Positions 2,447 to 64,000 of a stretch of DNA of 64,000 nt are shown in pieces. The notes below the pieces were generated by a model. It ran no database searches. It worked only from the letters and a program-made list of their open reading frames with translations, and had not been told where the DNA came from. Position 1 is the first letter of the stretch, and each line of letters starts with the position of its first letter. The translations under genes were made by a program, and so were the position numbers. Origin of the DNA: Ruminococcus sp. (lineage in GTDB: Bacteria > Bacillota > Clostridia > Oscillospirales > Acutalibacteraceae); NCBI GenBank assembly GCA_017403985.1, contig JAFRDE010000001.1:124001-188000 (forward strand), read 5' to 3'.

Positions 2447-2448
2447 TT

Positions 2449-2523
2449 TGGCTGGGAAGGCGGGGTTCGAACCCACGAATGACGGAGTCAAAGTCCGTTG
2501 CCTTACCGCTTGGCTACTTCCCA
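2449..2523 (-). tRNA. tRNA-Gln (anticodon TTG)
   Basis: On the minus strand the acceptor is TGGGAAG / CTTCCCA, the T-arm is GTGGGTTCGAACCCC and the anticodon loop is CTTTGAC with TTG (complement at 2489-2491), reading CAA. The encoded CCA lies at 2449-2451. Confidence 0.95.
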
Positions 2524-2534
2524 ACAACAGTAAC

Positions 2535-2562
2535 AGTATACCACAATTTCAGATTATGTCAA
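2535..2562 (-). promoter_or_regulatory. Promoter of tRNA-Gln
   Basis: On the minus strand TTGACA (2557-2562), a 16-base spacer and TATACT (2535-2540) lie 11 bases before the tRNA start. Confidence 0.8.
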
Positions 2563-2575
2563 CTATAACATAGTC

Positions 2576-2601
2576 ATGGGGCGACCGGAAAGCCGCCCCA
2601 T
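2576..2601 (-). terminator. Hairpin after clpE
   Basis: GC-rich stem ATGGGGCG / CGCCCCAT (2576-2583 and 2594-2601) ten bases past the clpE stop. No T-run follows on the minus strand, so termination is plausible rather than shown. Confidence 0.5.
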
Positions 2602-2610
2602 ACGATACAA

Positions 2611-48301: not shown

Positions 48302-48338
48302 AGATAAAGCGCTTGCCGCCACGACAAACGCTTTTATC
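48302..48338 (-). terminator. Hairpin at the end of the ABC exporter gene
   Basis: GATAAAGCG...CGCTTTTATC with an inner TTG/CAA pair. It overlaps the stop codon of the exporter gene and ends the pqqD-like operon. Confidence 0.6.
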
Positions 48339-50010
48339 TGCATATGATTTTTTTGTTTTCTATCGTCACCGTCTTATCACAAAACCGCTCGGCGGCTTTT
48401 TTATGCGAGATAAGAATACATGTTTTATTCTTAAGCTCCCGTAAGTTTTCTAACAACGAGAGCTCGGTCGCCTCATCCAGCGCCGAAGTCGCCTCGTCCA
48501 GCAGGATGACAGGCGCTCCGGAAAGGATCGCACGGGCGATCGCGACGCGTTGTACCTGACCCTCGCTCAGTCCTCCCCCATGCTCCGCGATGACGGTATT
48601 CAGCCCCTCGGGAAGCTCTTTGATAAATTCCTCAGCGCAGGCGATATGCGCCGCGTGCATAATGTCTTCATCCGTCGCGTCGGGCGCGACAAATGCAATA
48701 TTCTCACGCAGGGTACCGGACAGCAGGAAATTACCCTGCGGCACATAGGAAAAGAGCTTTCTGATACTCTTATCAACAATATATTTATGCTCATGAGTAC
48801 GGATATAGATCTCGCCCGACTTCGGCTGATAGACGCTCAACAGCAGCTTCATCAGCGTGCTTTTGCCGATACCGGAGATACCCTCGATAGCGACGAACTC
48901 GCCCTTTTTGATCATCAGAGATGTGGAATCAAGGACGATATCGCGGTCGAAAGCAAAGCTGATATCGTCAAAGCAGATCGCTTCCATGTCTTCATACAGC
49001 TTTTGCGGATCGATATCGCTGTTAAGCTCCGGTTCATCGGGAAGATTCTCGATCTCCATCAGCCTTTCGGCAGATGCAAGCGCGGTAAAATAGGTCGGAA
49101 AGATATTCGTCATGCCCTGTATCGGCGTACGGATCTGCCCTACCAGCGAGGTGATCTGCATCAACACGCCGTAAGAGATCGCGCCGTAATACAGCATATA
49201 GGCGCCCCAGCAGAGTCCCCATACAAAGGCAAAGGCAAAGACCGCTGACATTCCCGTGCCGGTGATGATGGAAAAGATATTTCTCTTTCGCTGGGAACGG
49301 TAGCTTTCCTCCTGCAGAGAATACGCGGATTTCTGCATCTTTTCCTGCGCGTCAAAGGTCTTGATCATCAAGAGGGAGCCTAAACCCTCCTGCATAAAGG
49401 AACGAACCTTTCCTTCCTTTTCCTGTACATCCTTATGCAGACGCTTGGTGACAGGCTTGAACAGGGACGCTATGACGAAGATCAGCGCCCCGCCCACGAC
49501 GAACACCAGCGCGAACAACACGTTGATCCGCACAAGGATATAGAAGATACCGACGATCTTTACGATAAAGAATACCAGATTCGGTACGATGGAGACGATC
49601 GCCGAGGTCACGACGTTGACGTCGTTGGTCAGACGGTTCATCAGTTCACCGGAATGATAGGCGGAGATATCGGCGTATTCCTTCATCATCATCGAGCGGA
49701 ACAGCGAAGACTTCATGCTCATATCGAGCTTTGCGCCGACCTTGAAGCAAAGATCGCGCGCCAAAATAAGGGTGACGATCTGTATCACGGTAACGCCCAG
49801 ATACAGCAGACCGTAGCGGATGACGTCATCCAGCGGACCGCCCTGCACACCCTTGACGGCGGCGTCTACCAGATCGCGCGCGAATACCGTGTTATATACG
49901 CCGATAAACGCGTTCAGTCCGTAGATGACCGCCAAAAATATAATATTGATAAACTGAGGCCTTGAGCTGCGTACGATCCAGCTCAAGGCGCTTTTTTGTT
50001 TTGCGGACAC
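48334..50010 (-). CDS. ABC exporter (fused permease and ATPase)
   Basis: The 558-residue half-transporter has an N-terminal six-helix exporter domain (about 15-310) and an ATPase with Walker A EGISGIGKSTL, signature LSEGQVQRVAIARA, Walker B VILLDEATSALDE and ISHKKAAE. There is no N-terminal C39 peptidase. The start is GTG at 50010, five bases after GGAGG; a TTG four codons earlier would place the ribosome site inside the gene. Third gene of the PqqD-like operon, it is the likely exporter for a peptide or modified product of the locus. Confidence 0.88.
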   Translation of the reverse strand: MSAKQKSALSWIVRSSRPQFINIIFLAVIYGLNAFIGVYNTVFARDLVDAAVKGVQGGPLDDVIRYGLLYLGVTVIQIVTLILARDLCFKVGAKLDMSMKSSLFRSMMMKEYADISAYHSGELMNRLTNDVNVVTSAIVSIVPNLVFFIVKIVGIFYILVRINVLFALVFVVGGALIFVIASLFKPVTKRLHKDVQEKEGKVRSFMQEGLGSLLMIKTFDAQEKMQKSAYSLQEESYRSQRKRNIFSIITGTGMSAVFAFAFVWGLCWGAYMLYYGAISYGVLMQITSLVGQIRTPIQGMTNIFPTYFTALASAERLMEIENLPDEPELNSDIDPQKLYEDMEAICFDDISFAFDRDIVLDSTSLMIKKGEFVAIEGISGIGKSTLMKLLLSVYQPKSGEIYIRTHEHKYIVDKSIRKLFSYVPQGNFLLSGTLRENIAFVAPDATDEDIMHAAHIACAEEFIKELPEGLNTVIAEHGGGLSEGQVQRVAIARAILSGAPVILLDEATSALDEATELSLLENLRELKNKTCILISHKKAAERFCDKTVTIENKKIICR

Positions 50011-50032
50011 ATTATCCTCCAACCGAAGTTAA

Positions 50033-50704
50033 TCAAACTCTCTCCAAAATGAAACGAAAATCATCAACGCTGCCCACACCGAAGAACTTCACGCGATGCA
50101 TAACGCGCTCTAAGATAAACAGCGTATGTTTGGTTCTCTCCTGACGGACGTTCTGCGACACCGCACGCATGAACAGCGGTACGAAATCCTTCGCTTCGAT
50201 CGCCCTGAGCGAATCAAAGCGCTGTCTGTCGACAAAGACGATCGACTTCAGCCTGAGCTTCTTCCCGGTAACAGACATATTGCCGTAGTCGCCGAAGGGC
50301 GTATCAAAAACATAGTAGTCGTCGTCCTGCATGCGGATGCCGGGATAATTGTACTCAAACGCGTACTTGCGCGGTATACGCTGCACCAGATCGACCGTCA
50401 TATCGTTCGGCGCGGCGAACAGCGTGCATTCGCCGTCGTTTTCAACGCCGACCGCACGGATCGGGAAGCCGTTGAAATCAAAAATCGCCCACGAATACAG
50501 CGTCGCCATATAAAGGGCTTCCACCGCGTCGGCGGTCATCCCCTCATATTCCTCCATCATTTCAAGCAGGCGGTCGTCGCTCATTTCGAGCGTGATATTC
50601 GGATCCGCCTTGTAGGTCACCTCATAGCGCTTGATACTCTCGGCGAGCGTCGGTGATTTTGTTTTAATGTCGACATTCAGGTCGGAAATTCGATATAAAG
50701 CCAT
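50033..50704 (-). CDS. HPr-kinase-like protein with degenerate P-loop
   Basis: The 223-residue product follows the pattern of HprK-like kinases found beside PqqD in RiPP loci: a strand-loop where GPSGSGKST is expected (here FAAPNDMTVDL, residues 96-106), a DDD box (127-129), a DTPFGD segment (134-139) and a hydrophobic strand LKSIVFVD, then a helical tail. The P-loop lysine is gone, so it is probably not an active ATP-dependent kinase. It lies 38 bases after pqqD and 22 bases before the exporter start. The fold call rests on pattern and context. Confidence 0.5.
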   Translation of the reverse strand: MALYRISDLNVDIKTKSPTLAESIKRYEVTYKADPNITLEMSDDRLLEMMEEYEGMTADAVEALYMATLYSWAIFDFNGFPIRAVGVENDGECTLFAAPNDMTVDLVQRIPRKYAFEYNYPGIRMQDDDYYVFDTPFGDYGNMSVTGKKLRLKSIVFVDRQRFDSLRAIEAKDFVPLFMRAVSQNVRQERTKHTLFILERVMHRVKFFGVGSVDDFRFILERV

Positions 50705-50742
50705 GATGTTACTCCGTAAAATGGTTAAGATTATTGATCAAC

Positions 50743-51006
50743 TTATTCGAGTAAATCAGCCTCTCTGAGCTTAGCGATGAATCGATCGATATCGGCGGCT
50801 GCCGTCGCTTCATCGACGTCATATTCCTCGAGCATTTTCGCGATAAGCTCTTCCCTGTCGGCGCCCTTTTCCAGCAGCTTCCACAGGAAGGCGCCGCTCT
50901 CGGATAATTTGATGATACCGGAAAAATCTGCCGCGCGCGTACGCACGGGAACGACCATGTAGGAACCGGCGATTTTCTTCAATATAAAGTTATCTTTCAC
51001 TTTCAT
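50743..51006 (-). CDS. PqqD-family peptide-recognition protein
   Basis: The 87-residue product has the PqqD fold pattern: MKVKDNFILKKIAGSYMVVP (strands), LSESGAFLWKLLEKGADREE, then a helical half ending DIDRFIAKLREADLL. PqqD-like domains (RRE) bind leader peptides for RiPP enzymes. No radical SAM or other maturase is in the operon, which continues with an HprK-like protein and an ABC exporter. GGTGAT lies before the ATG at 51006. The peptide gene at 51172-51324, immediately upstream, is the obvious candidate ligand. Confidence 0.85.
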   Translation of the reverse strand: MKVKDNFILKKIAGSYMVVPVRTRAADFSGIIKLSESGAFLWKLLEKGADREELIAKMLEEYDVDEATAAADIDRFIAKLREADLLE

Positions 51007-51085
51007 ATAATCACCATAAAAATTATAGCTTATCATGGCGATTTTTGCAAGTGGGAAATCATGATTTCAAAAGAGATTCAACAGA

Positions 51086-51114
51086 AAACGGCAGTCTGTG
51101 CATGGCTGCCGTTT
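51086..51114 (-). terminator. Terminator after the first 50-aa peptide gene
   Basis: AAACGGCAG / CTGCCGTTT, followed on the minus strand by TTCTG, between the peptide gene and the PqqD-family gene. Confidence 0.75.
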
Positions 51115-51171
51115 CCTATCCGTAAAACTCAATCACGGATGATGTGTATTCACTTATCTGTGTAACAGACT

Positions 51172-51324
51172 TTAGAGTTCCTCCATCGAATCGGGATTAT
51201 TAGGATCAAATTCTCCGCCGCTGACAGGGATATCGCTTTCGATCGGACTGGTCAGGATCACGTCCCTGAAGGTATATTCCACGATCTCTATCTCAGGGGA
51301 TACATATAAATTTTTCATTTTCAT
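51172..51324 (-). CDS. Small DVIxTS-motif peptide, copy 1 (50 aa)
   Basis: Begins MKMKNLYVSPEIEIVEYTF, has the core RDVILTSPIESD (20-31), a Gly-Gly (36-37) and an acidic Asn/Pro-rich end FDPNNPDSMEEL. It has no signal peptide and no cysteine. AAGGAGG is four bases before the first ATG; a second ATG is two codons later. It begins 18 bases after the stop of the giant secreted protein gene and is followed by a hairpin. It is 47/50 identical to the peptide at 61439-61591. It may be a precursor peptide or a small adaptor; function unknown. Confidence 0.75.
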   Translation of the reverse strand: MKMKNLYVSPEIEIVEYTFRDVILTSPIESDIPVSGGEFDPNNPDSMEEL

Positions 51325-51342
51325 CAATCCTCCTTCGTTAGA

Positions 51343-54300
51343 TTAAACCGGGAAATATTGACCCGGGGTGAATGTGCCGGTCTTGATCTCGCTGTAGGTG
51401 AATTCTCCGCTGACCTTAGTATAGGCGATAACCTTGTAGCTGCAGCCTGAGAACTGAGCGTAATCGCAGCTCATCCAAAGATCGGTACGGTTCAGTTTTG
51501 ACAGCGACGCCGCCCTGACACGGTAAGCATAGGTCGTATTCGTACCGCAGCCGTAGTTGGTATTGCCCAGCTTAGCTGAAGTCAAATCACGCGTTGACAT
51601 CGTATCGACCAGACTCTGAACTTTACTGTTAGCCAACGAGGAAAAAGCAGACTGATTGGCGCTTGTGGCAGATTTGTTCTGGAACAGGATCACCACGCCG
51701 CATTCGTTTGTCTTGGGATCGAACTCACTGCCGGTATCCGCCTTATTGCGGAAGTTGACCAGCGTATCGTTATAGATCTTACCGTTGGAGGCATCCGTCA
51801 GCTCCTGCGTGACGACGTTCTTGTCGATACCCGCCTGCCAGCCGGTACCGCGAAGGGTCGCGACCTGATCGGCAGGAGCAAAGAACGGCTTGATGGACAT
51901 ATTCTGCGTGATGCTGTAGCCGAAGTTCGCCTGTGTAGACAGGATCGTCGGTGTAGCGGAATTATCATTGTAAGCGATCCATCCGACGAATACGTCGCTG
52001 CTTTGACCGGAAGGCTTGTTGGCGACATAGCCGACGCCGAGATCGATCTTGGAGCTCCAGATCTTGTTGCTGATCGTTTGTGTATTCTCAAGAACGCCGC
52101 TGTCGCTATAGCTGTAAACCGTCAGCGTATACTTCGCGTCTGTGGACGAGCCTTCGATCGTGATCTCATACGGATTGGAATTATCCATATGATCAGTGTC
52201 GATTGTAAAGCTGACATTATGATTGAACACATGGATCTTGTTCAGATTCGACAGTTCACCCTCGATTTCCGTAAGACGCGTGGTCCTATCCAGAATACCG
52301 CCTGCAGACATTTCCGCAGCCGTCGCACCGGTAGCTGCCTTGACGGAATAGGTCACGATACCGTTTCTGCCGGGATAGGTAAAGTAATAGGTCGCCTGCG
52401 CGGAGAACATCGCGAAGTAACGGCTGTCGGTAGCGAAGCTCGGATTATAAATCAGACTGTCGCTGACCTTGGTGTACTCATCCTTGGTTTCATCATAGCT
52501 GTACCAGCCCTTGAATTCGCTGCTGTTCGCGGTCGCCGCGGTCAGAGTAACCTTTCCCTTGGTCGCGTCGGAAAGCTTCAGACTCGCCCAGTCAAGACCG
52601 TTGATCGTGCTCTTGGTCGCACTGGTAAGATCATTGGGATAGCTGATCGCGGAGGTACCGTAGCTCGCGCGGCTCTGCGGGTTCTCGGGAACGATCGCGT
52701 TGCCGTTTTCATCCATCATGCCGACGCCGGCGTATACGGTGACCTTCTCGTTGGTGGAGTTCGCATACCACTGACCGGAGAAGCGCGTCGCCGAGCCGCG
52801 GGTATTCGGCGCTTCGTAAGAGATCTTGATGGATTTCTCGCTCAGGGTACTGACGTCGCTGACAAGACCGCTGTTCATCAGCAGATCGGCGACATAAGGC
52901 TTGTCGCTGCCGGCGGCTTTCGCATAGAGCGCGTCGGACAGGGTGTGCAGCAGGAAGACGCCGTTCGCGTCATAGATGTACCACTCGACCGAATACTGAC
53001 CGTTGTAGGAGGAGTTCGGCGCGTAGGGTTTACCGTTGGGCGTGGTATCGGACTTATAGTCGACGTCGCCGACGCAGATGACATAGTAGCCTGCCGGAGC
53101 GGAGCCGACGGATTCGCCGAACATATTCAGACGGTTCTTGCCGTCCTTATCGGTCAGGTACTCAAAGGTGTAGGTGTCAAAAAGGGTCTGGTGCTCATCG
53201 AGTCCCTCGTCATAGTAATCGTATGCCTTACCGGGTACGCACTCGGTGTTATTGGTATTATGGACGTCGAGCTGCCACACACTCTTGTTCTTTGCGGAGT
53301 CGGAGTTATAATATTCGCCGCGGTAGCCGTCGTTGTTCTGTTTCAGTGAGAAGGAGAGCAGATTCTCGGAACCGCGTTCCATCAGGGTGATCGGCTCGGC
53401 ATAGTCGTAGGTCTGCGCCCAGTCGGGATAATTGAAGCGCTTACCGAACTTACCGAGGAAAGAATGCTCTACGTTATAGTTATTGAACAGAACGCCGCTA
53501 AGCTCCGCGCCTTCTTTCTGGTAGATAACGCCGGAGAAGGACTTACCGCTCGGGAGCATCAGCTGACCGGGCCATCCGCCGTTATTGTCGCGCGCTGTGC
53601 CGGTACCGCCGAAGACATACATGGCGACGAGGTCGCCCCATACGTTGCTGTCGACGTCCGCTGCATTGACGAACACCTCATACTTGCTGTAGCCGGCAGA
53701 AGAAGCGGCGCTTTCTGTCATCTCGTAGACAGGACAGATGAAGGTTTTGCTGCTGACGTTGGAGATCGAGCCGGAATAAACATTGCCCGCCTTTGTCGCC
53801 TTTGCGGTAGTCGCTTCGCCGGTATCCATGTTGTAGACGACGAAGCCGGATACCAGCGCTTTGGCTGCGTCCGTACCGTTGATGGTGACCTGGAAGTCGA
53901 CCGTTTCTAAGGTGCCGGTAAACTTCTTATAGCTGTATCTGTCCTCCCATTTTGTTCCGTCGGTCAGATGACTGTTACCGGTGCCGTCCTGACCGGGGGT
54001 GGTGATGCTCTGGGTCGGCTCGCTGAGAGTAAGACCCAACTTCGACGCTAAACCGTCGATACGACCGTTGGAGAGGTAGATCTCGTGATAGCTACTGTTA
54101 TAGACCGGAATGATGTAGACCTCGTTGGTAGAGGGCTTGTAGTAGATACGCACCTTGTTGGAGTCGGTATTCGACCCGTCGGTCAGGTGGAATTCACACT
54201 GACCGTTGCTGTTCAGCGTATGAGCAGTATCGATTGTGATATTGCCGTAATCGCCGTTATAGCTGATCGTCTTCGCGGCGTTGTACCATACCGCCTGATT

Positions 54301-57300
54301 CGTGGTGCCGGAGCTGTTGTTGTTGCCGGTGGCGGCAAGGTCAAAGATCTTGAAGTAATAGTGAGTGTTAACGGTCAAACCGTCCGTTTCGTGGTAGTAG
54401 ACCTGATTTGCTTCATCATAGGTCATGCTCACCGCGTTGCTCCAGGAAACGCTGCTGCCCAGCCCCTTGTTGCTGCCTGCGCCGTCGCCGCCGAGGAAGA
54501 TGTCACGGGTAGCGACGCCGTAAAGGAATGCCGACTTGGTCAGCGTGTAACGATAGACCGTGCTGTTCACAGCAGCAGGATCGATATCGCCCGCGCCGAG
54601 GTTGGGACCGGACGAGGAACCGTCAAACCATCCGATGAACTGGTACTTATTGTTCAGGTCGTCGGTAACGAGCAGGAGCTCGCTGTTTTCGGGGAATTTG
54701 CCGATGAGGTCGCCGTCCTCATCCGCCTCGATCAGATAGAAGGTATCGCCGCCGTCGGTTCTGGTCTCGAGAGGCCAAACAACGCCCGCAGCTTCCGCCG
54801 CAGCTTCATCCACGGGAGCGGAATCAAGCTTGAGGTACGCCTTGAGCTCTGCGATAGTTACCGACTCTACCTCGCCGAGGGAGGTTGTGCTCTTCTTATT
54901 ATAGGTGATGTACTTTGAGCTGACGTCGGACATGACCTTGGAGGTGATGTTGACGTTATAGCTCGTCGTACAGGTAGGCGTGATGATGACGTTGCCGCCG
55001 ATCTTACCGGTGATGGTGACGGTGTTATCGTCAAATACGATATGCATCGTATGACCGTCAAAGGTCAGGTCTGCGCTGGTATTCGAGCTGTTCACGGTCA
55101 CGTTGCTGCCGCCGACATACTTGACGTTCAGATCAGTCAGGATGCTGGTACCGTAATAATCGTCGGAGCCTTTGACAGTAATAGAATGGACGTCTGCTCC
55201 GGTACTGTAGTAGCCGGAAGCGGAGATTCCATCGATATCGACCTTATCGGCGTTCTTGACCGTGATACGGCAGGTATAGGGCTTTAAGGTGATCTCGGTG
55301 ATATGTACGTCGTGGTCGGGCATATTGAAGGAAATATAATGACCGTGGTTGACATACTCGACGCTCTCGCCCGTATCAAAGGTAACGGTATCGATACCGA
55401 AGCCGGCGGAGAGATTGTTGAAGGTCACGTTGACGTTGGCGCCATAGTAGATATTCTGCGGATTCGTCGTACTGCCGTTGATACCGGTGAAATACTCACC
55501 CGCCGTTGTATCTGTTGTATTGACCTCAACGGAATTCTGTGTAACGTATTTTGCGGTCAGGGTGACGTTGTCTTCGGTGATCCCCGCTTCGCCGTCGGTC
55601 TTAACATAGATCGTCGCGGCGTCAGAACCGGCAGCATAAGCTGCGGTACAGGCCGCATCCGTATACAGGCGGACATGGGATGATTTATCGCCGGAGAGGA
55701 CCCAGCCGCGGAAGACATAGGTTTTATCTGTATTAGCGGCAGGCTTGCTGACAGTCAGGGCAGATACGCCGCTGAAGTCGTCGGATTTCGAAGCGATAAC
55801 GGTCGAAACGCCGTTCTCGGTCTTTTCGATCTTGATGTTGGCTGTATTGACGTTCCACTTGGCATAGTAAGTCTGCGCACCGGTGATCGCTGTAGTGAAA
55901 TCGACCTTGGTAGAATCATTTTGCGTTGTCGCGCTGGTATACCAGCCGCCGAAGCTGTAGCCCGCGCGGGTCGGGGTAATGTTCTTCGCCTTGGCGCCGT
56001 AGGTGACGGCGAGCTGAGAAGTCGTATCCGAACTGCCACCATAATTTGATTCATTGTTATTGTAGGTGATGACCTGCGGGAAGTAGACGCTGACATTATG
56101 GGTCGTCGCATCATAAACGAACTTGTAAGTATGCGAATCGGTGCTTCCCGTAATGCGGATCGCTTCCAGTTCACAGTTGTTGCCATCCGAAGAATAGAAA
56201 GTATAATTCTCTGCGGTATTGGTCATTTTATTATTCAGACCGTACCAAGTTCTGTGATCAACGTCATAAACCTTAAAGCCGTTGCCGCCGGTCTCGTTGC
56301 GATAGAAATTACGGTTATCCGGCAGAGAAAGCTCGATATAATACTTGCCGGCATACGGGCCGGAGGGCATATAGGTCATGACGCGGTCGGGATTCAGCGT
56401 CGTGTTGTAGTTCCACGCATCACCCACGGAACCCGTCCACAGACCGAGCAGCATCATCGCCGGAGGCTCGTTGACTACGATAGTCGCGGACTTGGAGGAG
56501 CCGCCCATCGTCGCGGTGACGACATAGGTGCCGGGCATTTCTGTGCGGAATGTTGCGGTATTCGTCGCCGCGGCGGTCTCGCGATCACCCGCAGAGCCGC
56601 CGATCGTCAGGTAATCGGACGCGGTGACGGCGGTACCGTTCTTTGTGATCGTATAGACGATATTGCCGGTCTGGTTGGTGTTCGTCGCGGTCAGGGTGAC
56701 CGAGTCGCCGATACTCACGCCGGTCGTACCTGCCGTAGCGGGAGAAGTCGTCAACGAATTCAGCACAGGATTGCTGTTCTGCGCAAAGGTGACGTTGATG
56801 TTTTGGATCGCATAGGCTGTATCCGTGCCGCCGACTACCGTAAAGGTATAGTCGCCGTTAGCATCGGGGCCGGAGAGCCCGACGCCGTCATAGGTCACGG
56901 TGCTGACGTCATAGCCCTCGTTCGGGGTAGGATGGAATTTGAAGGTCGTGGAACGCGACGCGTAGAAGGTGGTGTTGGAGCTTGCGCTGACCGTACCGGT
57001 CTGCGAAACCACGCCGGAGGTACCGGCAGAGGTCGCCTTGTAGTATTCAACAGAAACCGAACCGTTCGCGCCGACGGTCACCTTCTGACCGCGGTTGAGG
57101 TAGTTACCCTCGTTGGTGCTTCTGTCGGCTACATATACACCTGAGCCGTCGATCGCGGTATCCTTGATCCACAGAAAATCAAGCGCGGATACGTTATCGC
57201 TGTTCTCGCCTAAGCCGAAGCCGATAAAGGATTTATCCTGATTATTGCCGTTGGCAAGATTATAGTAGCTGATATAGGTCGTCTTTTCGACGATGTTTGC

Positions 57301-59172
57301 CGTACCGGCAGAGGTAGCAAGAGCAAAACCGAAATAGGTATAGTTGTTCCAGCTGCCGCCGTTCAGGTAATACAGCTGATCGGTATTGGTCACCTTTGAC
57401 ATCTGGAGCATCGAGTAATTGTTGTTATTATCGCCGATGACGAAATACAGCTTATTGCTGCCGGAGATATTCCAGTTCGTGGAAGTATTATCGAAATAAA
57501 TCTTTCCGTAGCCGGAATACGTTGCGGTCGAATGTCCGGGCGCGCTGAAGTTTCCGCTGCTGTAGGTGATCGAGTTATTCAACACGTCAGTGATCGGGAT
57601 ATAGCCGGAATCGTTGCCGCCGATGACAAACCTGACGCAGTTATAATTGTAAGAAGCGTTCTCCGGTACGGCGGGAATCTCAGTATGATACACACCCGAT
57701 GTACCGTACTGCTGCGCGTGAGTACCTTCGACAGAGTTCGCGCCTGTCACGTCGGTCGCAAAATAGACCGCAGGATCAAGACCGTTGCTCGCGTTGAGAT
57801 ATACGGTCATACCCTCCATCGCGACTTCCTTTGCGAAGTTCGCGGTGACGGACTGACCGCTTGACGAAGCGTTGAACTGCGTATGATATTGATTCGCGTT
57901 ATTGGTTGTATCGAACGTGATACCGGACGTACCTGTCCAGCCGGTAAAGAAGTAGCCGGAATCCGCCTGTGCGTACGCGTTACCCTTGGTGGCTACGCCG
58001 ACGCCGGTAACGGTCTTTGCCGCGGCGGTATAGGTACTGCCGTCGATCGAAGTCTTACCGTGTCCGGCTGTGACAGCGGTAACGCTGACATTCTGAGCTG
58101 TTTCAGTCCAATGAGCGACCAGAGTGATATTGGAGTTGACAGCAGTAGAGAAATTGTACTCACTGCCGTTCAGCGTCCAGTAATCGAAAGTGTAGCCGGA
58201 TTTTGTAGGATTGCCGGGCGCAGTTGCAGTACCGCCTGCAGCAATCGTCTGTGACGCGACCGCAGAACCGCCGTCGGAATCAAAAGTGACGGTATAAGAG
58301 GTCGGATAGGTGACGGAAACAGTCGCTGTTTTATTCTTCCAATCCGACGCGGTAATAGAAACGGTATACGGAGCTGAAGCAGTCGTAGTAAACGCAGCTA
58401 CATTATTCGTGGAATTGGAAAAAGCCAAATTCGCAGTCGTACCGGAAATATCAGAATTACAACCCAGATACATCGTATCGGTCGTAGTATCATAGTTGCT
58501 GTTGGTTGAGAAATTCGGAAAACTGCTGTAATCCTTGACTACTTTATAATAATACTTCGTAGCGGCGTCAAGCGTACCTGTAGTTGCGGTAAAAGTGCTT
58601 GCTTCACTTGCGGGATTATCAGAAGTAGTAAAGTCAGCCAGCTTTGTCCAGTCTGAACCGGTGGTCTTTCCGCCGTACAGCTTGTAAGACGGCGGAGTAG
58701 GCAAGCTGGAAAATTTAGTAATACAAGGAGTACTATCTGTACGAAGCTCGGAGTTCGGATACCAAACTACGATATAGCCGGCGCTATTAGCTTTCAAATC
58801 GCTTCCATCCCAATCAAAATCAGAGGAAGAAGAAATGCCAGAAGCACCCCAAAAATCATTTACTTTTTGATCGTATTTAGTCCAAGAACCGTTTCCGTCA
58901 GTAATTTGAAACTTAGCAGATCCGGTCAACTGATAATAAGAATAGTATCCGCTCGGATGTTTTGTGAGTTCTGTCCAAGTACCCCAATTGCCGGGGATAC
59001 CGCCGCCATTACCTACTATGTAATACGACTTGCTGGTATCAACAGAGCCGACTTCAGCCAGATCCTCCAAAACAGCCGCGAAGCCGGTGGTGACGGTGCC
59101 GAGCATGAGTAAAAGCGCTAACACCAGAGCGGTAGAAGCGCGAAGAATATGCGTGAGTTTCTTTGATTTCAT
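51343..59172 (-). CDS. Giant secreted multi-module surface protein (2,609 aa)
   Basis: A signal peptide (MKSKKLTHILRASTALVLAL to about 33) precedes a chain of beta modules rich in Thr, Ser, Asn, Gly and Tyr. Among them are InlB-B type repeats (YTVTFDSDGGSAVASQTI near 300; again near 1,100), an Ig-like stretch (LNSLTTSPATAGTTGVSIGD) and a CBM26-like module near 1,850 (LVAMYVFGG...NGGWPGQLM...GVLFNNY). The last 790 residues are paralogous to the protein at 61610-64000 and end TGTFTPGQYFPV. No LPxTG, transmembrane tail or dockerin is visible, so anchoring is unexplained. The ATG at 59172 follows GGAGG. Probable role: binding starch or another glycan at the cell surface. Confidence 0.85.
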   Translation of the reverse strand: MKSKKLTHILRASTALVLALLLMLGTVTTGFAAVLEDLAEVGSVDTSKSYYIVGNGGGIPGNWGTWTELTKHPSGYYSYYQLTGSAKFQITDGNGSWTKYDQKVNDFWGASGISSSSDFDWDGSDLKANSAGYIVVWYPNSELRTDSTPCITKFSSLPTPPSYKLYGGKTTGSDWTKLADFTTSDNPASEASTFTATTGTLDAATKYYYKVVKDYSSFPNFSTNSNYDTTTDTMYLGCNSDISGTTANLAFSNSTNNVAAFTTTASAPYTVSITASDWKNKTATVSVTYPTSYTVTFDSDGGSAVASQTIAAGGTATAPGNPTKSGYTFDYWTLNGSEYNFSTAVNSNITLVAHWTETAQNVSVTAVTAGHGKTSIDGSTYTAAAKTVTGVGVATKGNAYAQADSGYFFTGWTGTSGITFDTTNNANQYHTQFNASSSGQSVTANFAKEVAMEGMTVYLNASNGLDPAVYFATDVTGANSVEGTHAQQYGTSGVYHTEIPAVPENASYNYNCVRFVIGGNDSGYIPITDVLNNSITYSSGNFSAPGHSTATYSGYGKIYFDNTSTNWNISGSNKLYFVIGDNNNNYSMLQMSKVTNTDQLYYLNGGSWNNYTYFGFALATSAGTANIVEKTTYISYYNLANGNNQDKSFIGFGLGENSDNVSALDFLWIKDTAIDGSGVYVADRSTNEGNYLNRGQKVTVGANGSVSVEYYKATSAGTSGVVSQTGTVSASSNTTFYASRSTTFKFHPTPNEGYDVSTVTYDGVGLSGPDANGDYTFTVVGGTDTAYAIQNINVTFAQNSNPVLNSLTTSPATAGTTGVSIGDSVTLTATNTNQTGNIVYTITKNGTAVTASDYLTIGGSAGDRETAAATNTATFRTEMPGTYVVTATMGGSSKSATIVVNEPPAMMLLGLWTGSVGDAWNYNTTLNPDRVMTYMPSGPYAGKYYIELSLPDNRNFYRNETGGNGFKVYDVDHRTWYGLNNKMTNTAENYTFYSSDGNNCELEAIRITGSTDSHTYKFVYDATTHNVSVYFPQVITYNNNESNYGGSSDTTSQLAVTYGAKAKNITPTRAGYSFGGWYTSATTQNDSTKVDFTTAITGAQTYYAKWNVNTANIKIEKTENGVSTVIASKSDDFSGVSALTVSKPAANTDKTYVFRGWVLSGDKSSHVRLYTDAACTAAYAAGSDAATIYVKTDGEAGITEDNVTLTAKYVTQNSVEVNTTDTTAGEYFTGINGSTTNPQNIYYGANVNVTFNNLSAGFGIDTVTFDTGESVEYVNHGHYISFNMPDHDVHITEITLKPYTCRITVKNADKVDIDGISASGYYSTGADVHSITVKGSDDYYGTSILTDLNVKYVGGSNVTVNSSNTSADLTFDGHTMHIVFDDNTVTITGKIGGNVIITPTCTTSYNVNITSKVMSDVSSKYITYNKKSTTSLGEVESVTIAELKAYLKLDSAPVDEAAAEAAGVVWPLETRTDGGDTFYLIEADEDGDLIGKFPENSELLLVTDDLNNKYQFIGWFDGSSSGPNLGAGDIDPAAVNSTVYRYTLTKSAFLYGVATRDIFLGGDGAGSNKGLGSSVSWSNAVSMTYDEANQVYYHETDGLTVNTHYYFKIFDLAATGNNNSSGTTNQAVWYNAAKTISYNGDYGNITIDTAHTLNSNGQCEFHLTDGSNTDSNKVRIYYKPSTNEVYIIPVYNSSYHEIYLSNGRIDGLASKLGLTLSEPTQSITTPGQDGTGNSHLTDGTKWEDRYSYKKFTGTLETVDFQVTINGTDAAKALVSGFVVYNMDTGEATTAKATKAGNVYSGSISNVSSKTFICPVYEMTESAASSAGYSKYEVFVNAADVDSNVWGDLVAMYVFGGTGTARDNNGGWPGQLMLPSGKSFSGVIYQKEGAELSGVLFNNYNVEHSFLGKFGKRFNYPDWAQTYDYAEPITLMERGSENLLSFSLKQNNDGYRGEYYNSDSAKNKSVWQLDVHNTNNTECVPGKAYDYYDEGLDEHQTLFDTYTFEYLTDKDGKNRLNMFGESVGSAPAGYYVICVGDVDYKSDTTPNGKPYAPNSSYNGQYSVEWYIYDANGVFLLHTLSDALYAKAAGSDKPYVADLLMNSGLVSDVSTLSEKSIKISYEAPNTRGSATRFSGQWYANSTNEKVTVYAGVGMMDENGNAIVPENPQSRASYGTSAISYPNDLTSATKSTINGLDWASLKLSDATKGKVTLTAATANSSEFKGWYSYDETKDEYTKVSDSLIYNPSFATDSRYFAMFSAQATYYFTYPGRNGIVTYSVKAATGATAAEMSAGGILDRTTRLTEIEGELSNLNKIHVFNHNVSFTIDTDHMDNSNPYEITIEGSSTDAKYTLTVYSYSDSGVLENTQTISNKIWSSKIDLGVGYVANKPSGQSSDVFVGWIAYNDNSATPTILSTQANFGYSITQNMSIKPFFAPADQVATLRGTGWQAGIDKNVVTQELTDASNGKIYNDTLVNFRNKADTGSEFDPKTNECGVVILFQNKSATSANQSAFSSLANSKVQSLVDTMSTRDLTSAKLGNTNYGCGTNTTYAYRVRAASLSKLNRTDLWMSCDYAQFSGCSYKVIAYTKVSGEFTYSEIKTGTFTPGQYFPV

Positions 59173-59412
59173 TCTATCATTCCTCCAAATCTTATTCACT
59201 TAGATATGACGCGGGCTTTTCACGCGCCGAAAATTATTCGGAAAAGAAGAGTTACCCGGATCAAACGCGCCCTGACCATGCGCGCCTCCTGTAGCTGTAT
59301 CCGAATGATCGGGATGATTCGGAAAAAAGGGTATGCAGGATAGCTCATCATATGCAGTTCCTTCATATTTTAACAGTGCAACAAAAACAAGGAATCTACA
59401 CCAATTTAGTTT
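59173..59412 (-). other. Long leader of the giant protein gene, with a possible vestigial peptide ORF
   Basis: About 230 bases separate the promoter from the ATG. One frame (59200-59380) reads ...TGGAHGQGAFDPGNSSFPNN, faintly like the GG..FDPNNPD end of the 50-aa peptides, but it has no start codon. A different frame (59220-59366) could encode 48 basic residues without a convincing ribosome site. I do not call either as a gene. Confidence 0.3.
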
Positions 59413-59441
59413 ATTATATAAAACATTTGAACAAAAATCAA
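59413..59441 (-). promoter_or_regulatory. Promoter of the giant protein gene
   Basis: On the minus strand TTGATT (59436-59441), 17-base spacer, TATAAT (59413-59418). The expected leader is over 230 bases. Confidence 0.75.
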
Positions 59442-59542
59442 TAAGATTTTTAGAACTTTTGATAATAATTTTTACTGCATCTATCCTATCCCGCAAAAAA
59501 GCTCGCTAATCTATGCGGTATCAACATATTTTCTGCATGCAA

Positions 59543-59584
59543 AACAGCCGACAGGCTCTCACATTGAAAGCGCCGTCGGCTGTT
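59543..59584 (-). terminator. Terminator after the 41-aa peptide gene
   Basis: AACAGCCGAC / GTCGGCTGTT with TTTT on the minus strand, 14 bases past the peptide stop. Confidence 0.8.
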
Positions 59585-59597
59585 GTCGTTCAATTGT

Positions 59598-59723
59598 TTA
59601 TCTGTTCGGCTTGAGGATTTCATCCTCAAACCGATCGCCTTCCGGAGTTGAGGTGACGATCACATCTTCAGCATCAAAGACAGTGAGGGTCAGTGCGGTA
59701 CGTTCATAATTCTCTTTCATCAT
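59598..59723 (-). CDS. Small DVIxTS-motif peptide, divergent member (41 aa)
   Basis: Begins MMKENYERTALTLTVFDAE, core EDVIVTSTPEGD, end RFEDEILKPNR. It shares DVI(L/V)TSxxExD with the two 50-aa peptides but little else. GGAGG lies five bases before the first ATG. It starts 11 bases after the stop of the leucine-rich-repeat protein gene and is followed by a terminator, the same arrangement as the other two. No signal peptide. Confidence 0.7.
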   Translation of the reverse strand: MMKENYERTALTLTVFDAEDVIVTSTPEGDRFEDEILKPNR

Positions 59724-59734
59724 CACGACCTCCC

Positions 59735-61348
59735 TCATTCGTTGAAAAAGACGTTTGCGGCTTGGTTATAGCGATAGACCGCCGCCGCGAGCTGCTTTGT
59801 GATACTCGAGCTGTACGGCGCATCGTCCAAACTATACGCAAGCGCGGAATAATCGAGTGCGGAATACTGATATTCATGACCGTTGAGCACAAACACATAC
59901 TCTGTGTCGAGCTGTGAAGCAGCGATATTCGGCTTGTCGAAGTAGATCAAGCCGTTTTTGGTACCGTAGGTCACGTGTTCGCCGTTAAAGGTGACGCCGT
60001 TCTTGATCTCAGCGGTGAACTTTGAGGAATCCTTGATCTTATAATAATGACGGAGCGTTGTCTTGGAGAGATAGATGACCGAAGTGCCGTAATATTCCAG
60101 ACCGCAGTCCTCGAGATACTCTTCCATATCGCTTGCACCGCTCGATATCGTTACTTCACCGGTATAGAAATCGGTGGTTCCGCCGTTGGCGAGATTATCG
60201 GTGTTGCAGTTAAAGCGGATCTGCGCCTTGGAGCCGTAGTCGAGCATTTTTTTCACAAGATCCTGAAGCTGTGTTAATCTCTGATCGCCGTTTCTGCCCT
60301 TGTTATTCTCGGATTCGACATAGGAGATCGCGAAATCGGTATCTGTCAGGATCTTATTCGCGTAGGTCACGGCGGAATAGGTATCGGGGAAGCTGCATAC
60401 CGCATTGTCGACCAACACCTTCGCGGTCACGCCGCAGGTCATTTCCGCGATGGCAACGGGACACGCCGCCTTGTAGCCGATCGAAGTTTTATCATCGGGA
60501 GCCAGCGTATCGGAATGAGTATACTCAACACCGTCGACCGTCCAGGAGAAATCAACCTTTGCCCTGCCGCTGTTCACATATGCATCCGGAACATTGACAT
60601 AGAAATTGATCACGATATCGCCGTTCAGGGAGATGGAATGTTTGGTGAAATAGACGTCCGCATCCAACAGAACAAAAGGAATATCCTTTTCGACAGCGTA
60701 GGTATGAGCTGCGGAACCGCTGTAACAGTAGATCGTCAGTGCGTCACAGCCGTAAAAGGCGTTGTCGGAGATATTCGTCACGGACGCGGGGATCAGCAGG
60801 CTTTGAAGCGACGAGCACTGATAGAACGCGTAGTTGCCGATCGAGGTACAGGTATCGGGCAGCTGCAGATCACTGAGCCCGGAATTCGCAAAGCAGTAAT
60901 CGGGGATCACTGTCACGGAGGAATCCTGCAGGTTGACGTCCGATAATGAGGAGCAGTTATAGAAGCAGCCCATCCCGACAGAGGTGATCGAGGGATAGAA
61001 GACGACCTTCTGTAAGCCGGAGCAGCAGTGGAAGGCGTATTCATCGACGGTCTCCAATACGGAAGAGAGCGTCACGGCGGTGACGGAGGTCTTCTGGTAG
61101 AAGGCGTAGTCGGCGATCTCGGTGACATACTGCTTCGCAAAGGCATAAGGCAGTTCGACCGCGGGACCCTCACCGAGATATTTAACGATCTTATAGCCGT
61201 AATTCGTGAGAGGCTGATAAGACCAGTCGCCGGAGGTGATCACAACGCCGTCGCCTGTTTCTTCCAGATCAACCGGAGCAGCAGCTACGGAAACAGAGAC
61301 AGCACAAATCAACAGGATTGAAAGCAAAATCGATAATAGACGTTTCAT
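59735..61348 (-). CDS. Secreted BspA-type leucine-rich-repeat surface protein
   Basis: The 537-residue product has a signal peptide (MKRLLSILLSILLICAVSVSVAAA). At least five BspA/LRR_5 repeats follow at about 50-230, of the form SIGNYAFYQCSSLQSLLIP and VTNISDNAFYGCDALTIY. The C-terminal half of about 300 residues is beta-rich and ends in a helix, LAAAVYRYNQAANVFFNE. BspA repeats mediate adhesion in gut and oral bacteria. The ATG at 61348 follows AAAGGATA. There is no visible wall anchor. Confidence 0.85.
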   Translation of the reverse strand: MKRLLSILLSILLICAVSVSVAAAPVDLEETGDGVVITSGDWSYQPLTNYGYKIVKYLGEGPAVELPYAFAKQYVTEIADYAFYQKTSVTAVTLSSVLETVDEYAFHCCSGLQKVVFYPSITSVGMGCFYNCSSLSDVNLQDSSVTVIPDYCFANSGLSDLQLPDTCTSIGNYAFYQCSSLQSLLIPASVTNISDNAFYGCDALTIYCYSGSAAHTYAVEKDIPFVLLDADVYFTKHSISLNGDIVINFYVNVPDAYVNSGRAKVDFSWTVDGVEYTHSDTLAPDDKTSIGYKAACPVAIAEMTCGVTAKVLVDNAVCSFPDTYSAVTYANKILTDTDFAISYVESENNKGRNGDQRLTQLQDLVKKMLDYGSKAQIRFNCNTDNLANGGTTDFYTGEVTISSGASDMEEYLEDCGLEYYGTSVIYLSKTTLRHYYKIKDSSKFTAEIKNGVTFNGEHVTYGTKNGLIYFDKPNIAASQLDTEYVFVLNGHEYQYSALDYSALAYSLDDAPYSSSITKQLAAAVYRYNQAANVFFNE

Positions 61349-61380
61349 AAGCGTTATCCTTTCACATTCAATAAAACACA

Positions 61381-61410
61381 ATATGCCGCAGCTGTTACAC
61401 TGCGGCATAT
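61381..61410 (-). terminator. Terminator after the second 50-aa peptide gene
   Basis: ATATGCCGCAG / CTGCGGCATAT, a perfect 11-base stem; on the minus strand TTGTGTTTTATTG follows. Confidence 0.8.
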
Positions 61411-61438
61411 TTGCAATCACTTATCTGTGTAACAGACT

Positions 61439-61591
61439 TTAGAGTTCTTCCATCGGGTCAGGGTTATTAGGATCAAATTCTCCGCCGCTGACCGGGATAT
61501 CGCTTTCGACAGGACTTGTCAAAATCACATCCCTGAAGGTGTATTTAACAATCTCGATCTCAGGGGATACATATAAATTTTTCATTTTCAT
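61439..61591 (-). CDS. Small DVIxTS-motif peptide, copy 2 (50 aa)
   Basis: Differs from the copy at 51172-51324 only at residues 16 (K for E), 28 (V for I) and 46 (P for S). Core RDVILTSPVESD. The ribosome site AAGGAGG is the same, and about 25 bases beyond the stop are identical in both copies. It begins 18 bases after the stop of the giant protein gene at 61610-64000. Several silent differences at codon third positions suggest selection on the peptide. Confidence 0.75.
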   Translation of the reverse strand: MKMKNLYVSPEIEIVKYTFRDVILTSPVESDIPVSGGEFDPNNPDPMEEL

Positions 61592-61609
61592 CAATCCTCC
61601 TTCAACAGA

Positions 61610-64000
61610 TTAAACTGCAGGGAATTTTTGACCAGGAGTGAATGTGCCGGTCTTGATCGGGCTGTAGGTGTAGGAGCCGCCGTCCTTGGTGTAGGAAACC
61701 ACTAAGAACTTTCCTCCGGTGAACTGGGAGTAATCGCAGCCCATGTAGAGGTCTGCACGGTTCAGATCGGAGAGCGACGTCGTCTTGATGCGGTAAGCAT
61801 ACGCGTCACCTACGCCGCGGCTCGCGCCGAGCTTCGCCGATCTAAAGTTATCGCCGGCATTGTCTGCACCGGAAGCCATAGACTGTACAAAGCTTTGGAT
61901 TGTAGAGGTATTCGCCGCCAAGGAATCGAATGCAGTGCTGTAAGTCGCATCCTTTGTCGACTCGCCGGTCTGGAAGATGACCAGTAATCCGCTGTCGCCG
62001 GTATACTTCTCGCCGGTAGCTTCATTGTTGCGGATGTTGATCAGCGTATCGGTATAGATCCTACCGGTAGAGGAGCTCGTCAGTTCCTGTGTGACGCCGA
62101 CCTTGTCGATGCCTGCCTGCCAGCCGGTACCGCGCAGTGCGGTGACCTCTGCGTCAGTCGCAACGAAGAACGGCTCGATGGAAATATTATCCGAAACGCT
62201 GTAGCCGAAGTTCGCCTGCGTGGACAGGATGGTCGGATAAGTGGAAGAGTTTCCTGCGCTATAGCTGCTGCCGGTACCGTACTTGATCCAGCCGGCAAAC
62301 TTATAGTCAGAATGACCGGAAGGCTTATTCGCGATGTACGATACGCCGAGGTCGACCTTTCTCGCCCATGTACCGGTAACGGTTTCCACCGGTGATCCGA
62401 GCACACCGCTTTCATTATAAGCATAGACCGTTGTCGTATACGTTGTATCGGTGGTAGTGCCGGTGAACTTCAGTTCATAAGGCGAGGAGTTATCAGCAGT
62501 GCCGATCGTGAAGTCGGTATTCTTGTTGAATACGGTGATATCGCTGATCTTCGCGAGCTTCTCAGCTACGTCGGAAGATCTCTTGGAGATATTGAGGGTA
62601 CCGCCTTCTGCCATCTCATCCTGATCAAGGTCGTAACCGGGCATCGAGTAAACTCTGGTGCTGTTACGTCCGGGATAAGTAAAGGTGTAGGTGGCAGCCG
62701 CGCTGTAGAACGCGTAGTAGGTGATATCGGAGTTGAAGGACGGGGTGATCGTCAGGTTCTTATAGTTGGAGTTGACTGGCACAAACTCGCCGTCTTCATT
62801 CTGCATATACCAACCGATGAACTTGTCGCTCGAGTTGGTAGCGGTAAAGGCGACTTTACCCTTTGTCGCGCTGGACTTCTTAACAGACGCCATACTGTAA
62901 TGGGTGTTGCTGAATTCGTCCACAAGATTCTCGCCCTTACCGGAATCCAGATCGCTATCGGAGACCGCTGCATAGTTTTCGCCGATCATGTTGTTGTCCA
63001 TCGGCGTATAAACGCCGTCGGAGAGGATACCTACGCGAACTTTACCTTCGATCAGGGTGTTGACGCCGTCGGCGTACCACTGACCGGAGTAACGGATCGC
63101 CTCAGACCATGTGCCGGGGTTCTCGTACGCGATCTTGACCGCCTTGCCCGTGACAGGATAGTCGGCAGCGAGCAGCTTGGACGCGATGTAGGAAGTGACG
63201 TCTTCATCGTTCACGACAGCGTCGGTGTAGGAAGCGGAGAGGTAGGAACCGCTGAGAACTTCCGTATTGTTAACGCTGTATACCTTCCAGTTGATCGAAT
63301 ATGCACCGGTATAATCTTCGCCGCTGCGGGTGCCGTTCTCAAAATCATACGCACCGCTCGAAGAATAAAGGTTGGTGTAGTAAGCGACGATACGATAAGT
63401 CTCGGTCGCGTTGTTGACCTTGTTGCCGTTGAGGTCGACACGGTTCTTACCGGAACGGTCGGTCAGGTAGCCGACGTCAGCCCAGTTGTCTACGCGATCC
63501 AAAGAGCCGGAACCGGCGGAATTGATCGTCGGGGCGGTCTTCATATCGCCGGACTTGAGCGCGAAGGTCAGGTCCATATCATCGGTATCGTAAATAATGC
63601 TGGTGCCGGTACCGTCTTTTTCATTGATATTATCAATGATAGAGATCGGCTCACGGTAGTCGTAGGTCTGGTAGATATGAGTGTTGTTAGCGGAATAATC
63701 AACATCGCTGACAGACTTGCTCTTATAGGTTGCGAGGAAGTTCGCGCCTGCACCGCTGCCGCCCCATCTTCTCGCATAGTTGTTGAAGGTGATGCCGGCG
63801 AGACCGTTATGGGTAAAGGTCAGAGGAGCGTAGAAGGAAGAGCCGTCATCAGAGGGGATCATCAGCTGACCGGGCCAGAAGCCGCTGTCGTAGCGGGTAT
63901 CGGTACCCCATGAGTACATCGCGACCAAACCGCCCCAGTCGTCCTTATCGATCTCATCGGTACGGACGTAAACCATGTGGGTCTCTAAGCTTTGTGAGCT
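61610..64000 (-). CDS. Giant secreted surface protein, C-terminal part (runs off the window)
   Basis: 797 codons are visible and the frame is open to the window edge, so the N-terminus is missing. The visible part aligns over its whole length with the C-terminal third of the protein at 51343-59172: a CBM26-like module (GGLVAMYSWG...GFWPGQLMIP...GITFNNY), then TILSTQANFGYSVSDNISIEPFF, LRGTGWQAGIDK and the end KTGTFTPGQKFPAV. It carries no LPxTG or transmembrane tail. It is followed 18 bases later by a 50-aa peptide gene, like its paralogue. Confidence 0.85.
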   Translation of the reverse strand, partial: SSQSLETHMVYVRTDEIDKDDWGGLVAMYSWGTDTRYDSGFWPGQLMIPSDDGSSFYAPLTFTHNGLAGITFNNYARRWGGSGAGANFLATYKSKSVSDVDYSANNTHIYQTYDYREPISIIDNINEKDGTGTSIIYDTDDMDLTFALKSGDMKTAPTINSAGSGSLDRVDNWADVGYLTDRSGKNRVDLNGNKVNNATETYRIVAYYTNLYSSSGAYDFENGTRSGEDYTGAYSINWKVYSVNNTEVLSGSYLSASYTDAVVNDEDVTSYIASKLLAADYPVTGKAVKIAYENPGTWSEAIRYSGQWYADGVNTLIEGKVRVGILSDGVYTPMDNNMIGENYAAVSDSDLDSGKGENLVDEFSNTHYSMASVKKSSATKGKVAFTATNSSDKFIGWYMQNEDGEFVPVNSNYKNLTITPSFNSDITYYAFYSAAATYTFTYPGRNSTRVYSMPGYDLDQDEMAEGGTLNISKRSSDVAEKLAKISDITVFNKNTDFTIGTADNSSPYELKFTGTTTDTTYTTTVYAYNESGVLGSPVETVTGTWARKVDLGVSYIANKPSGHSDYKFAGWIKYGTGSSYSAGNSSTYPTILSTQANFGYSVSDNISIEPFFVATDAEVTALRGTGWQAGIDKVGVTQELTSSSTGRIYTDTLINIRNNEATGEKYTGDSGLLVIFQTGESTKDATYSTAFDSLAANTSTIQSFVQSMASGADNAGDNFRSAKLGASRGVGDAYAYRIKTTSLSDLNRADLYMGCDYSQFTGGKFLVVSYTKDGGSYTYSPIKTGTFTPGQKFPAV

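Follow-up and report, generated by a model that had tools for sequence, protein, structure and literature searches.

Why should a tiny gene follow, at nearly the same spacing, each of three genes for large proteins? The question is raised by a 64,000-nucleotide stretch of Ruminococcus sp. (GenBank assembly GCA_017403985.1, contig JAFRDE010000001.1, positions 124,001 to 188,000; hereafter, the window). The first-pass annotation of this DNA had proposed three such units, with the tiny gene 11-18 nucleotides (nt) past the stop of the large one and DVI(L/V)TS common to the three peptides, and coordinates and translations agree: the units all lie on the minus strand, the gaps are 18 nt (behind the giant protein farthest upstream), 11 nt (behind a leucine-rich repeat [LRR] protein) and 18 nt (behind a second giant, of 2618 aa), and each peptide carries the motif. 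Genes for a PqqD-family protein, an HprK-like protein and an ATP-binding cassette (ABC) exporter follow in the same orientation, and family matches bear out these assignments (Table 1). The peptides, together with the PqqD and HprK-like gene set, point to an undescribed pairing of secreted proteins with a processed peptide. We put at about even the chance that this is a companion-peptide system, widespread in Clostridia, in which a precursor peptide and its secreted partner act jointly; the precursor part of this reading is held to be more likely than the partner part.

The peptides form a sequence family. A profile of four peptides found 9 places in the window genome and matches in 36 of 59 genomes (the window genome included), and a profile of 46 stretches found 10 places in the window genome and matches in 41 of 293 genomes of the class Clostridia, representing 31 of 181 genera, with a maximum of 23 matches in one genome (G241). 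The consensus, derived from 68 stretches that match a fixed-length pattern and are less than 80% alike, reads K-E-x-Y-E-R-(T/P)-E-L-E-I-x-x-F-x-T-E-D-V-I-x-T-S-G and is followed by a variable tail. In 11 related pairs, some of which share a member, the ratio of nonsynonymous to synonymous change (pN/pS) is 0.19 for the front and 0.50 for the tail, with similar synonymous change in both; a strongly conserved front joined to a much less conserved tail is suggestive of a precursor-like peptide. Short open reading frames (ORFs) are frequent in a scan of this kind, so that chance or non-coding ORFs had to be considered, but this explanation is refuted, and its probability is negligible, given the front pN/pS, the profile E value of 4e-21 for a copy from another species (G035) that was absent from the profile, and the Shine-Dalgarno-like 5-mers ahead of 64 of 80 peptide starts (a broad pattern, counted with no control). 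Judged by sequence, the peptide genes appear to be translated and held under selection, the front resembling a leader and the tail being freer to vary. One of the ten places in the window genome, the tenth (contig C51), lacks a standard start codon and could be a decayed copy; a dockerin-type protein of 120 aa is encoded ahead of it. No credible fusion of a peptide with a large protein was found in the loci examined; among the class matches listed, only that of G301 sits in a long frame (467 aa), and it was judged false. In one locus (L069, 6284-12505; G012:C20), three large proteins with a common C-terminal end are each followed by a peptide of 48 aa, and the three peptides are identical. In another (L073, 7121-11739; G003), genes for an HprK-like protein and a nucleotidyltransferase are accompanied by two peptides, neither of which follows a large gene; one of the two contains Cys and is encoded on the opposite strand.

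The association with large genes extends to the relatives. It was counted for 90 peptides in loci from the window, L006, L041-L082, L112-L131, L135-L154 and L254-L273, a non-random sample hand-picked from peptide, PqqD or nucleotidyltransferase matches, mostly the best ones; with one peptide at an edge left out, 89 (87 distinct) were testable. In this sample, 72 of 89 peptides have a gene of 300 aa or more on the same strand no more than 100 nt ahead of them, with a median gap of 14 nt, compared with 187 of 926 other genes of the same loci (94 of 926 behind such a gene with a signal peptide). Among the partners of the 72 peptides, a signal peptide was called, by a crude criterion, in 56 and not in three, and 13 are truncated at a contig end. 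Elsewhere in the class (L254-L272), 16 of 19 loci show the pairing, 14 of them with a signal peptide. The remaining 17 of the 89 peptides are without a large neighbor, although four of these follow a smaller protein with a signal-peptide call. A small gene immediately behind a large secreted one could also encode an immunity protein for a toxin. We consider toxin/immunity pairs very unlikely, because unrelated large proteins are followed by peptides with a similar front half and no Pfam toxin family was found in P0001-P0003.

A second test of the pairing started from the partner instead of the peptide. Loci were chosen by the C-terminal part of the window LRR protein, denoted domain B; the alignment used as query was built from genes whose peptides had been found before, the matches were not so chosen, and the best 80 of 187 matches (named records) were taken. 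After removal of one cut ORF and three loci without room, 76 were testable, and in 66 the domain-B gene is directly followed by a peptide (65 by script and L172 by eye, owing to a frameshift; the peptide of L199, counted among the 66, looks degenerate); minus three repeats, the count is 63 of 73. Within these 80 loci, a peptide follows only 6 of the 185 other genes that encode 300 aa or more (4 of 86 in the signal-peptide subset). Thus, the peptide tracks particular C-terminal domains rather than secretion as such. The peptides themselves also differ by partner: Pro at position +3 after the Tyr is found in 1 of 26 peptides of the domain-B cluster and, by script, in 19 of 22 of those behind the C-terminal families c1 and c2 (21 of 22 by eye, the script having misplaced two). 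This Pro subtype also goes with PqqD type (12 of 13 versus 4 of 13, p 0.004). These associations are no proof of contact, because common descent of whole pairs could produce the same pattern. Profile comparison relates c1 to c2 (E 8e-7) and links neither domain B nor c3 to them. The model of domain B (predicted local distance difference test [pLDDT] 92) was read as two immunoglobulin (Ig)-like beta domains with helices; a Foldseek search against the PDB gave only partial Ig/fibronectin type III-like matches, none at E <= 1e-3, and therefore says little on function. The model of c2, the family at the C-termini of the giants, has a pLDDT of 59 (three rows).

The link between peptide and PqqD that the first-pass annotation suggested seeking in related genomes is present across the class. 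PqqD matches occur in 39 of the 41 genomes with peptide matches and in 94 of the 252 without (p 4e-13, by a Fisher test that treats the genomes as independent although they are related), and at least 14 of these 41 genomes encode a peptide no more than 6 kb from PqqD. The HprK-like family is found in 39/41 versus 40/252, and its full-length type in 38/41 versus 12/252 (p 1e-33 by the same test, at a cut set after the table was seen). Per genome, peptide matches outnumber PqqD matches, 10 to 3 in the window genome and 23 to 2 in G241. Homologs occurring widely without PqqD or large neighbors were looked for, and the exceptions are genome G278 and the 17 peptides mentioned above. Two further genomes depart from the co-occurrence: G301, through its false peptide match, and G225, in which the HprK-like match is in two pieces. 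Among the genomes with domain-B genes, no loss of PqqD was found: all 21 that were checked, including ten selected because a peptide was missing, have both PqqD and peptide matches.

The gene set as first listed (PqqD, HprK-like protein and exporter) stands and has to be enlarged, because relatives add an S24-type peptidase and a PF14907 nucleotidyltransferase, neither of which is in the window cassette. The recurrent cassette runs secreted gene, peptide, HprK-like, PqqD, S24-type, ABC and PF14907 nucleotidyltransferase; it is complete in L278, varies in order and members, and is repeated, for example, in L278, L262 and L078. In a second cassette type (L054; L128 is similar by eye), a peptide and PqqD are joined by a membrane protein, a small dockerin protein and a protein in which S24 and nucleotidyltransferase are fused. 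PF14907 was confirmed by family scan in the seven loci scanned for it as well as in L054, where the fusion of the two domains lies at 2448-3902, and in L073; the other cassette labels were assigned by eye or with our own profiles. The S24 label rests on PF00717, which scores over the cut-off in L054, just under it in L278, under it in L042 and not at all in L046. While the family score is weak, Ser32, His72 and Asp88 are invariant in 9 of 9 proteins; we take these to be the ER/SipW-type catalytic set.

The window HprK-like protein, described as dead in the first-pass annotation, is a homolog (E 2e-24) from which the P-loop and nearby catalytic motifs are gone, so that the P-loop and the catalytic His/Lys/Asp/Asp set (the tetrad as given in PMC9266682) are absent; P-loop loss is also seen in L046, L116 and L118. 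The description fits this copy only, since the genome encodes a second one (G000:C42:30109-30819; L277 10110-10823) with an intact PSGTGKST P-loop and NDDKP, away from the three PqqD genes. The third of these PqqD genes (L042 5804-8160; G000:C33) is followed by an S24-type gene and then by one of the CotH family (PF08757), and no peptide was found beside it. Considering that the intact HprK-like gene (C42), the S24-type gene (C33) and two PF14907 genes (C15) are all present in the window genome, a working set may exist in trans. By eye, the CotH-family protein of L042 has a dockerin-like end. In G048, a PqqD locus (L123, 8902-14523) contains a Cys-containing small protein of another type, an adjoining giant protein and, by eye, radical-SAM-, HprK-, ABC- and S24-like genes.

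These cassettes bear on the possibility that the peptide is an unprocessed cytosolic helper or regulator of its partner, such as an export chaperone or a feedback peptide, sensed by PqqD and the HprK-like protein. Tight coupling of the peptide to the upstream gene and its C-terminal domain type would fit such a role, as would the lack of a visible secretion signal on the peptide and the degenerate state of the HprK-like protein in one clade. However, a fast-evolving tail behind a nearly frozen front is not what such a helper would lead one to expect, and the cassettes hold an exporter and a peptidase-like protein with invariant Ser/His/Asp; we regard this explanation as improbable.

The nearest solved relative of the window PqqD is TbiB1 (5v1u; E 3e-5), the RiPP (ribosomally synthesized and post-translationally modified peptide) recognition element (RRE) of a lasso pathway. 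According to PMC12710340 and PMC10368454, the PqqD-type RREs of lasso and related pathways bind YxxP leaders, and for phosphorylated lasso peptides the latter describes a PqqD-type B1 protein that helps a kinase and a protease act on a precursor with a YxxPxL leader. The system described here resembles the lasso pathways with a kinase and a nucleotidyltransferase (paeninodin, pseudomycoidin and Bsf; PMC10368454 and PMC9266682) in the discrete PqqD-type RRE and in the HprK-like kinase, nucleotidyltransferase and ABC exporter; a YxxPxL-like motif and a Thr near the putative leader end may be further points of likeness. It differs from them in the S24-type protein and in its numerous scattered precursors, every one encoded downstream of a gene for a secreted protein. 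Both Y-x-x-P/T-x-L and T-S are present, with 18 positions from Tyr to Thr versus 15 in the published YxxPxL/Thr -2 numbering (PMC10368454). The B2 leader protease (PF13471) has no match in the window genome, and no lasso cyclase (PF00733) was noticed by eye in the cassettes, no family search having been run for it; we therefore do not claim lasso membership. In G241, an asparagine-synthetase-like gene (616 aa, starting MCGISGF; L259 7630-9706) comes directly after a peptide gene but in the opposite orientation.

More broadly, as in RRE-dependent RiPP systems (PqqD, TbiB1 and FusE), a PqqD-like RRE and an exporter are encoded with a short precursor that has a conserved leader and a variable core; unlike in these systems, no modifying enzyme that would define a class, such as a radical SAM, YcaO or ATP-grasp enzyme, was noticed in the cassettes read (the radical-SAM-like gene of L123 aside), and the precursors are spread genome-wide. 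The SynChlorMet cassette and HPr-rel-A/B (TIGR04249, TIGR04352, TIGR04353 and TIGR04355) likewise combine HprK-like and PqqD-like proteins and give weak profile matches, but with scores far under the curated cut-offs. Display by sortase or dockerin also involves large secreted proteins, and the window genome has dockerin-type proteins and nine sortase-family matches (at nine places), although Pfam finds no cell-wall anchor family in the window giants, and here the peptide is a separate gene. The parts are thus of known kinds, those of RRE-guided peptide systems; an account of this pairing or motif did not turn up in the titles, abstracts and text excerpts of the open-access literature searched, which leaves subscription papers and preprints mostly outside.

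This kinship raises the alternative of ordinary exported signals or bacteriocins of the RiPP type: the peptides would share only transcription with the surface proteins and would not act on them. The set of RRE, kinase-like, peptidase-like and exporter proteins is as in lasso tailoring pathways, peptide tails are variable, and some peptides have no large neighbor. Such free signals nevertheless seem unlikely to us in view of genomes with up to 23 matches, most of which follow secreted genes where loci were read, and of the tie to certain C-terminal domains, which argues for joint action of peptide and partner.

In the companion-peptide scheme that we favor, certain large secreted genes are each followed, typically 10-20 nt past the stop, by a tiny gene for a presumed precursor peptide. 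The peptide front (Y-x-x-P/T-x-L ... F-x-x-E-D-V-I-x-T-S) would be a leader bound by the PqqD-type RRE protein, and proteins shared across the genome (the HprK-like kinase, the S24-type peptidase and, in many relatives, a PF14907 nucleotidyltransferase) would modify the tail and cut off the leader, probably near T-S. The ABC exporter would send the product out, and this product would act with the partner encoded just upstream, most likely via the C-terminal domain of the partner. What has been observed is the sequence family, the gene pairing and its tie to C-terminal domain type, the co-occurrence with PqqD and HprK-like genes, and the selection pattern; the steps from binding to joint action are inferred.

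Several observations weigh against this scheme. PqqD occurs without peptide matches in the 94 genomes counted above, and the Fisher tests take no account of relatedness among genomes. Genome G278 has real peptides behind large genes (L264 and L290), with no PqqD or HprK-like match. Full-length HprK-like proteins are found in 12 genomes with no peptide match; in ten of these, the loci were viewed and no peptide was seen, although PqqD and S24-type genes are present in some, so the gene set also occurs without a recognizable peptide. Ten of the 76 domain-B genes are without a peptide, though their genomes have peptides and PqqD elsewhere. The peptide tail has no invariant residue that would mark a site. 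Finally, the window cassette itself has the degenerate HprK-like protein with neither the S24-type gene nor a nucleotidyltransferase beside it, both PF14907 genes being elsewhere.

Within the window, each unit ends, as had been claimed, in a strong hairpin with a T-rich tail (RNA fold z of -4.7, -5.5 and -4.8 for units 1 to 3); a simple terminator scan lists only the first of the three (61411-61380) and finds 19 terminator-like sites in the same region versus 13.4 +- 4.2 expected, scarcely above expectation. Signal peptides, which had been assigned to all three large proteins, are seen by eye in two; the start of the upstream giant lies outside the window and the contig. Pfam detects no peptidase domain in the window ABC exporter, and searches of Pfam and NCBIfam gave no match to the peptides or to the degenerate HprK-like protein, while for the C-terminal domains no match passed the cut-off. 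The genes adjoining this group of genes, which by eye we take to be icd and Rex, are also the neighbors of the cassette in several relatives.

Table 1. Features of the three units and the adjoining cassette (window positions)
Feature	Position	Strand	Basis
Giant protein, C-terminal part, 2954+ aa in contig, start beyond contig end	61610..64000	-	ORF; C-terminal family c2 at 61613-62182 (clustering)
Companion peptide 1, 50 aa, MKMKNLYVSPEIEIVKYTFRDVILTS + tail	61439..61591	-	ORF and peptide profile
Terminator-like hairpin after peptide 1	61380..61411	-	Simple terminator scan and RNA fold
BspA-type LRR protein, 537 aa from ATG 61348, signal-peptide-like start	59735..61348	-	PF13306, E 2e-35
Domain B, C-terminal part of LRR protein	about 59738-60650	-	Model, pLDDT 92
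Companion peptide 2, 41 aa, MMKENYERTALTLTVFDAEDVIVTS + tail	59598..59723	-	ORF and peptide profile
Terminator-like hairpin after peptide 2 (stretch folded)	59533..59597	-	RNA fold
Giant protein, 2618 aa, likely ATG start 59172, Listeria-Bacteroides repeats	51343..59199	-	ORF, Pfam; C-terminal family c2 at 51346-51915
Companion peptide 3, 50 aa, MKMKNLYVSPEIEIVEYTFRDVILTS + tail	51172..51324	-	ORF
Terminator-like hairpin after peptide 3 (stretch folded)	51076..51171	-	RNA fold
PqqD-family protein, 97 aa (or 87 aa from ATG 51006)	50743..51036	-	PF05402, E 2e-19
Degenerate HprK-like protein, P-loop lost	50033..50704	-	Profile of P-loop-bearing HprK-like proteins
ABC exporter, membrane and ATPase parts in one chain	48334..50022	-	PF00664, PF00005

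A more specific version, which we put forward tentatively and think rather less probable than the general scheme, is that, within certain families, every secreted or surface protein receives its own separately encoded, RRE-guided and enzyme-processed peptide, which would be docked on or joined to the C-terminal domain of the partner outside the cell. If so, such a peptide would be an anchor, cross-link, cap or ligand, unlike display by sortase, SLH or dockerin. PqqD is found in 133 of the 293 class genomes and the HprK-like family in 79, and, in our judgment, such sets are often orphans with respect to their product; for part of them, probable substrates can now be named, in the form of a peptide family that gene callers may miss. 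An orphan gene set thereby becomes directly testable, and its carriers include an isolate, Lachnoclostridium sp. MSJ-17, for which three domain-B genes (L199, L204 and L228), four peptide matches and two PqqD matches were recorded. The large secreted partners are proteins by which these bacteria may meet food and host.

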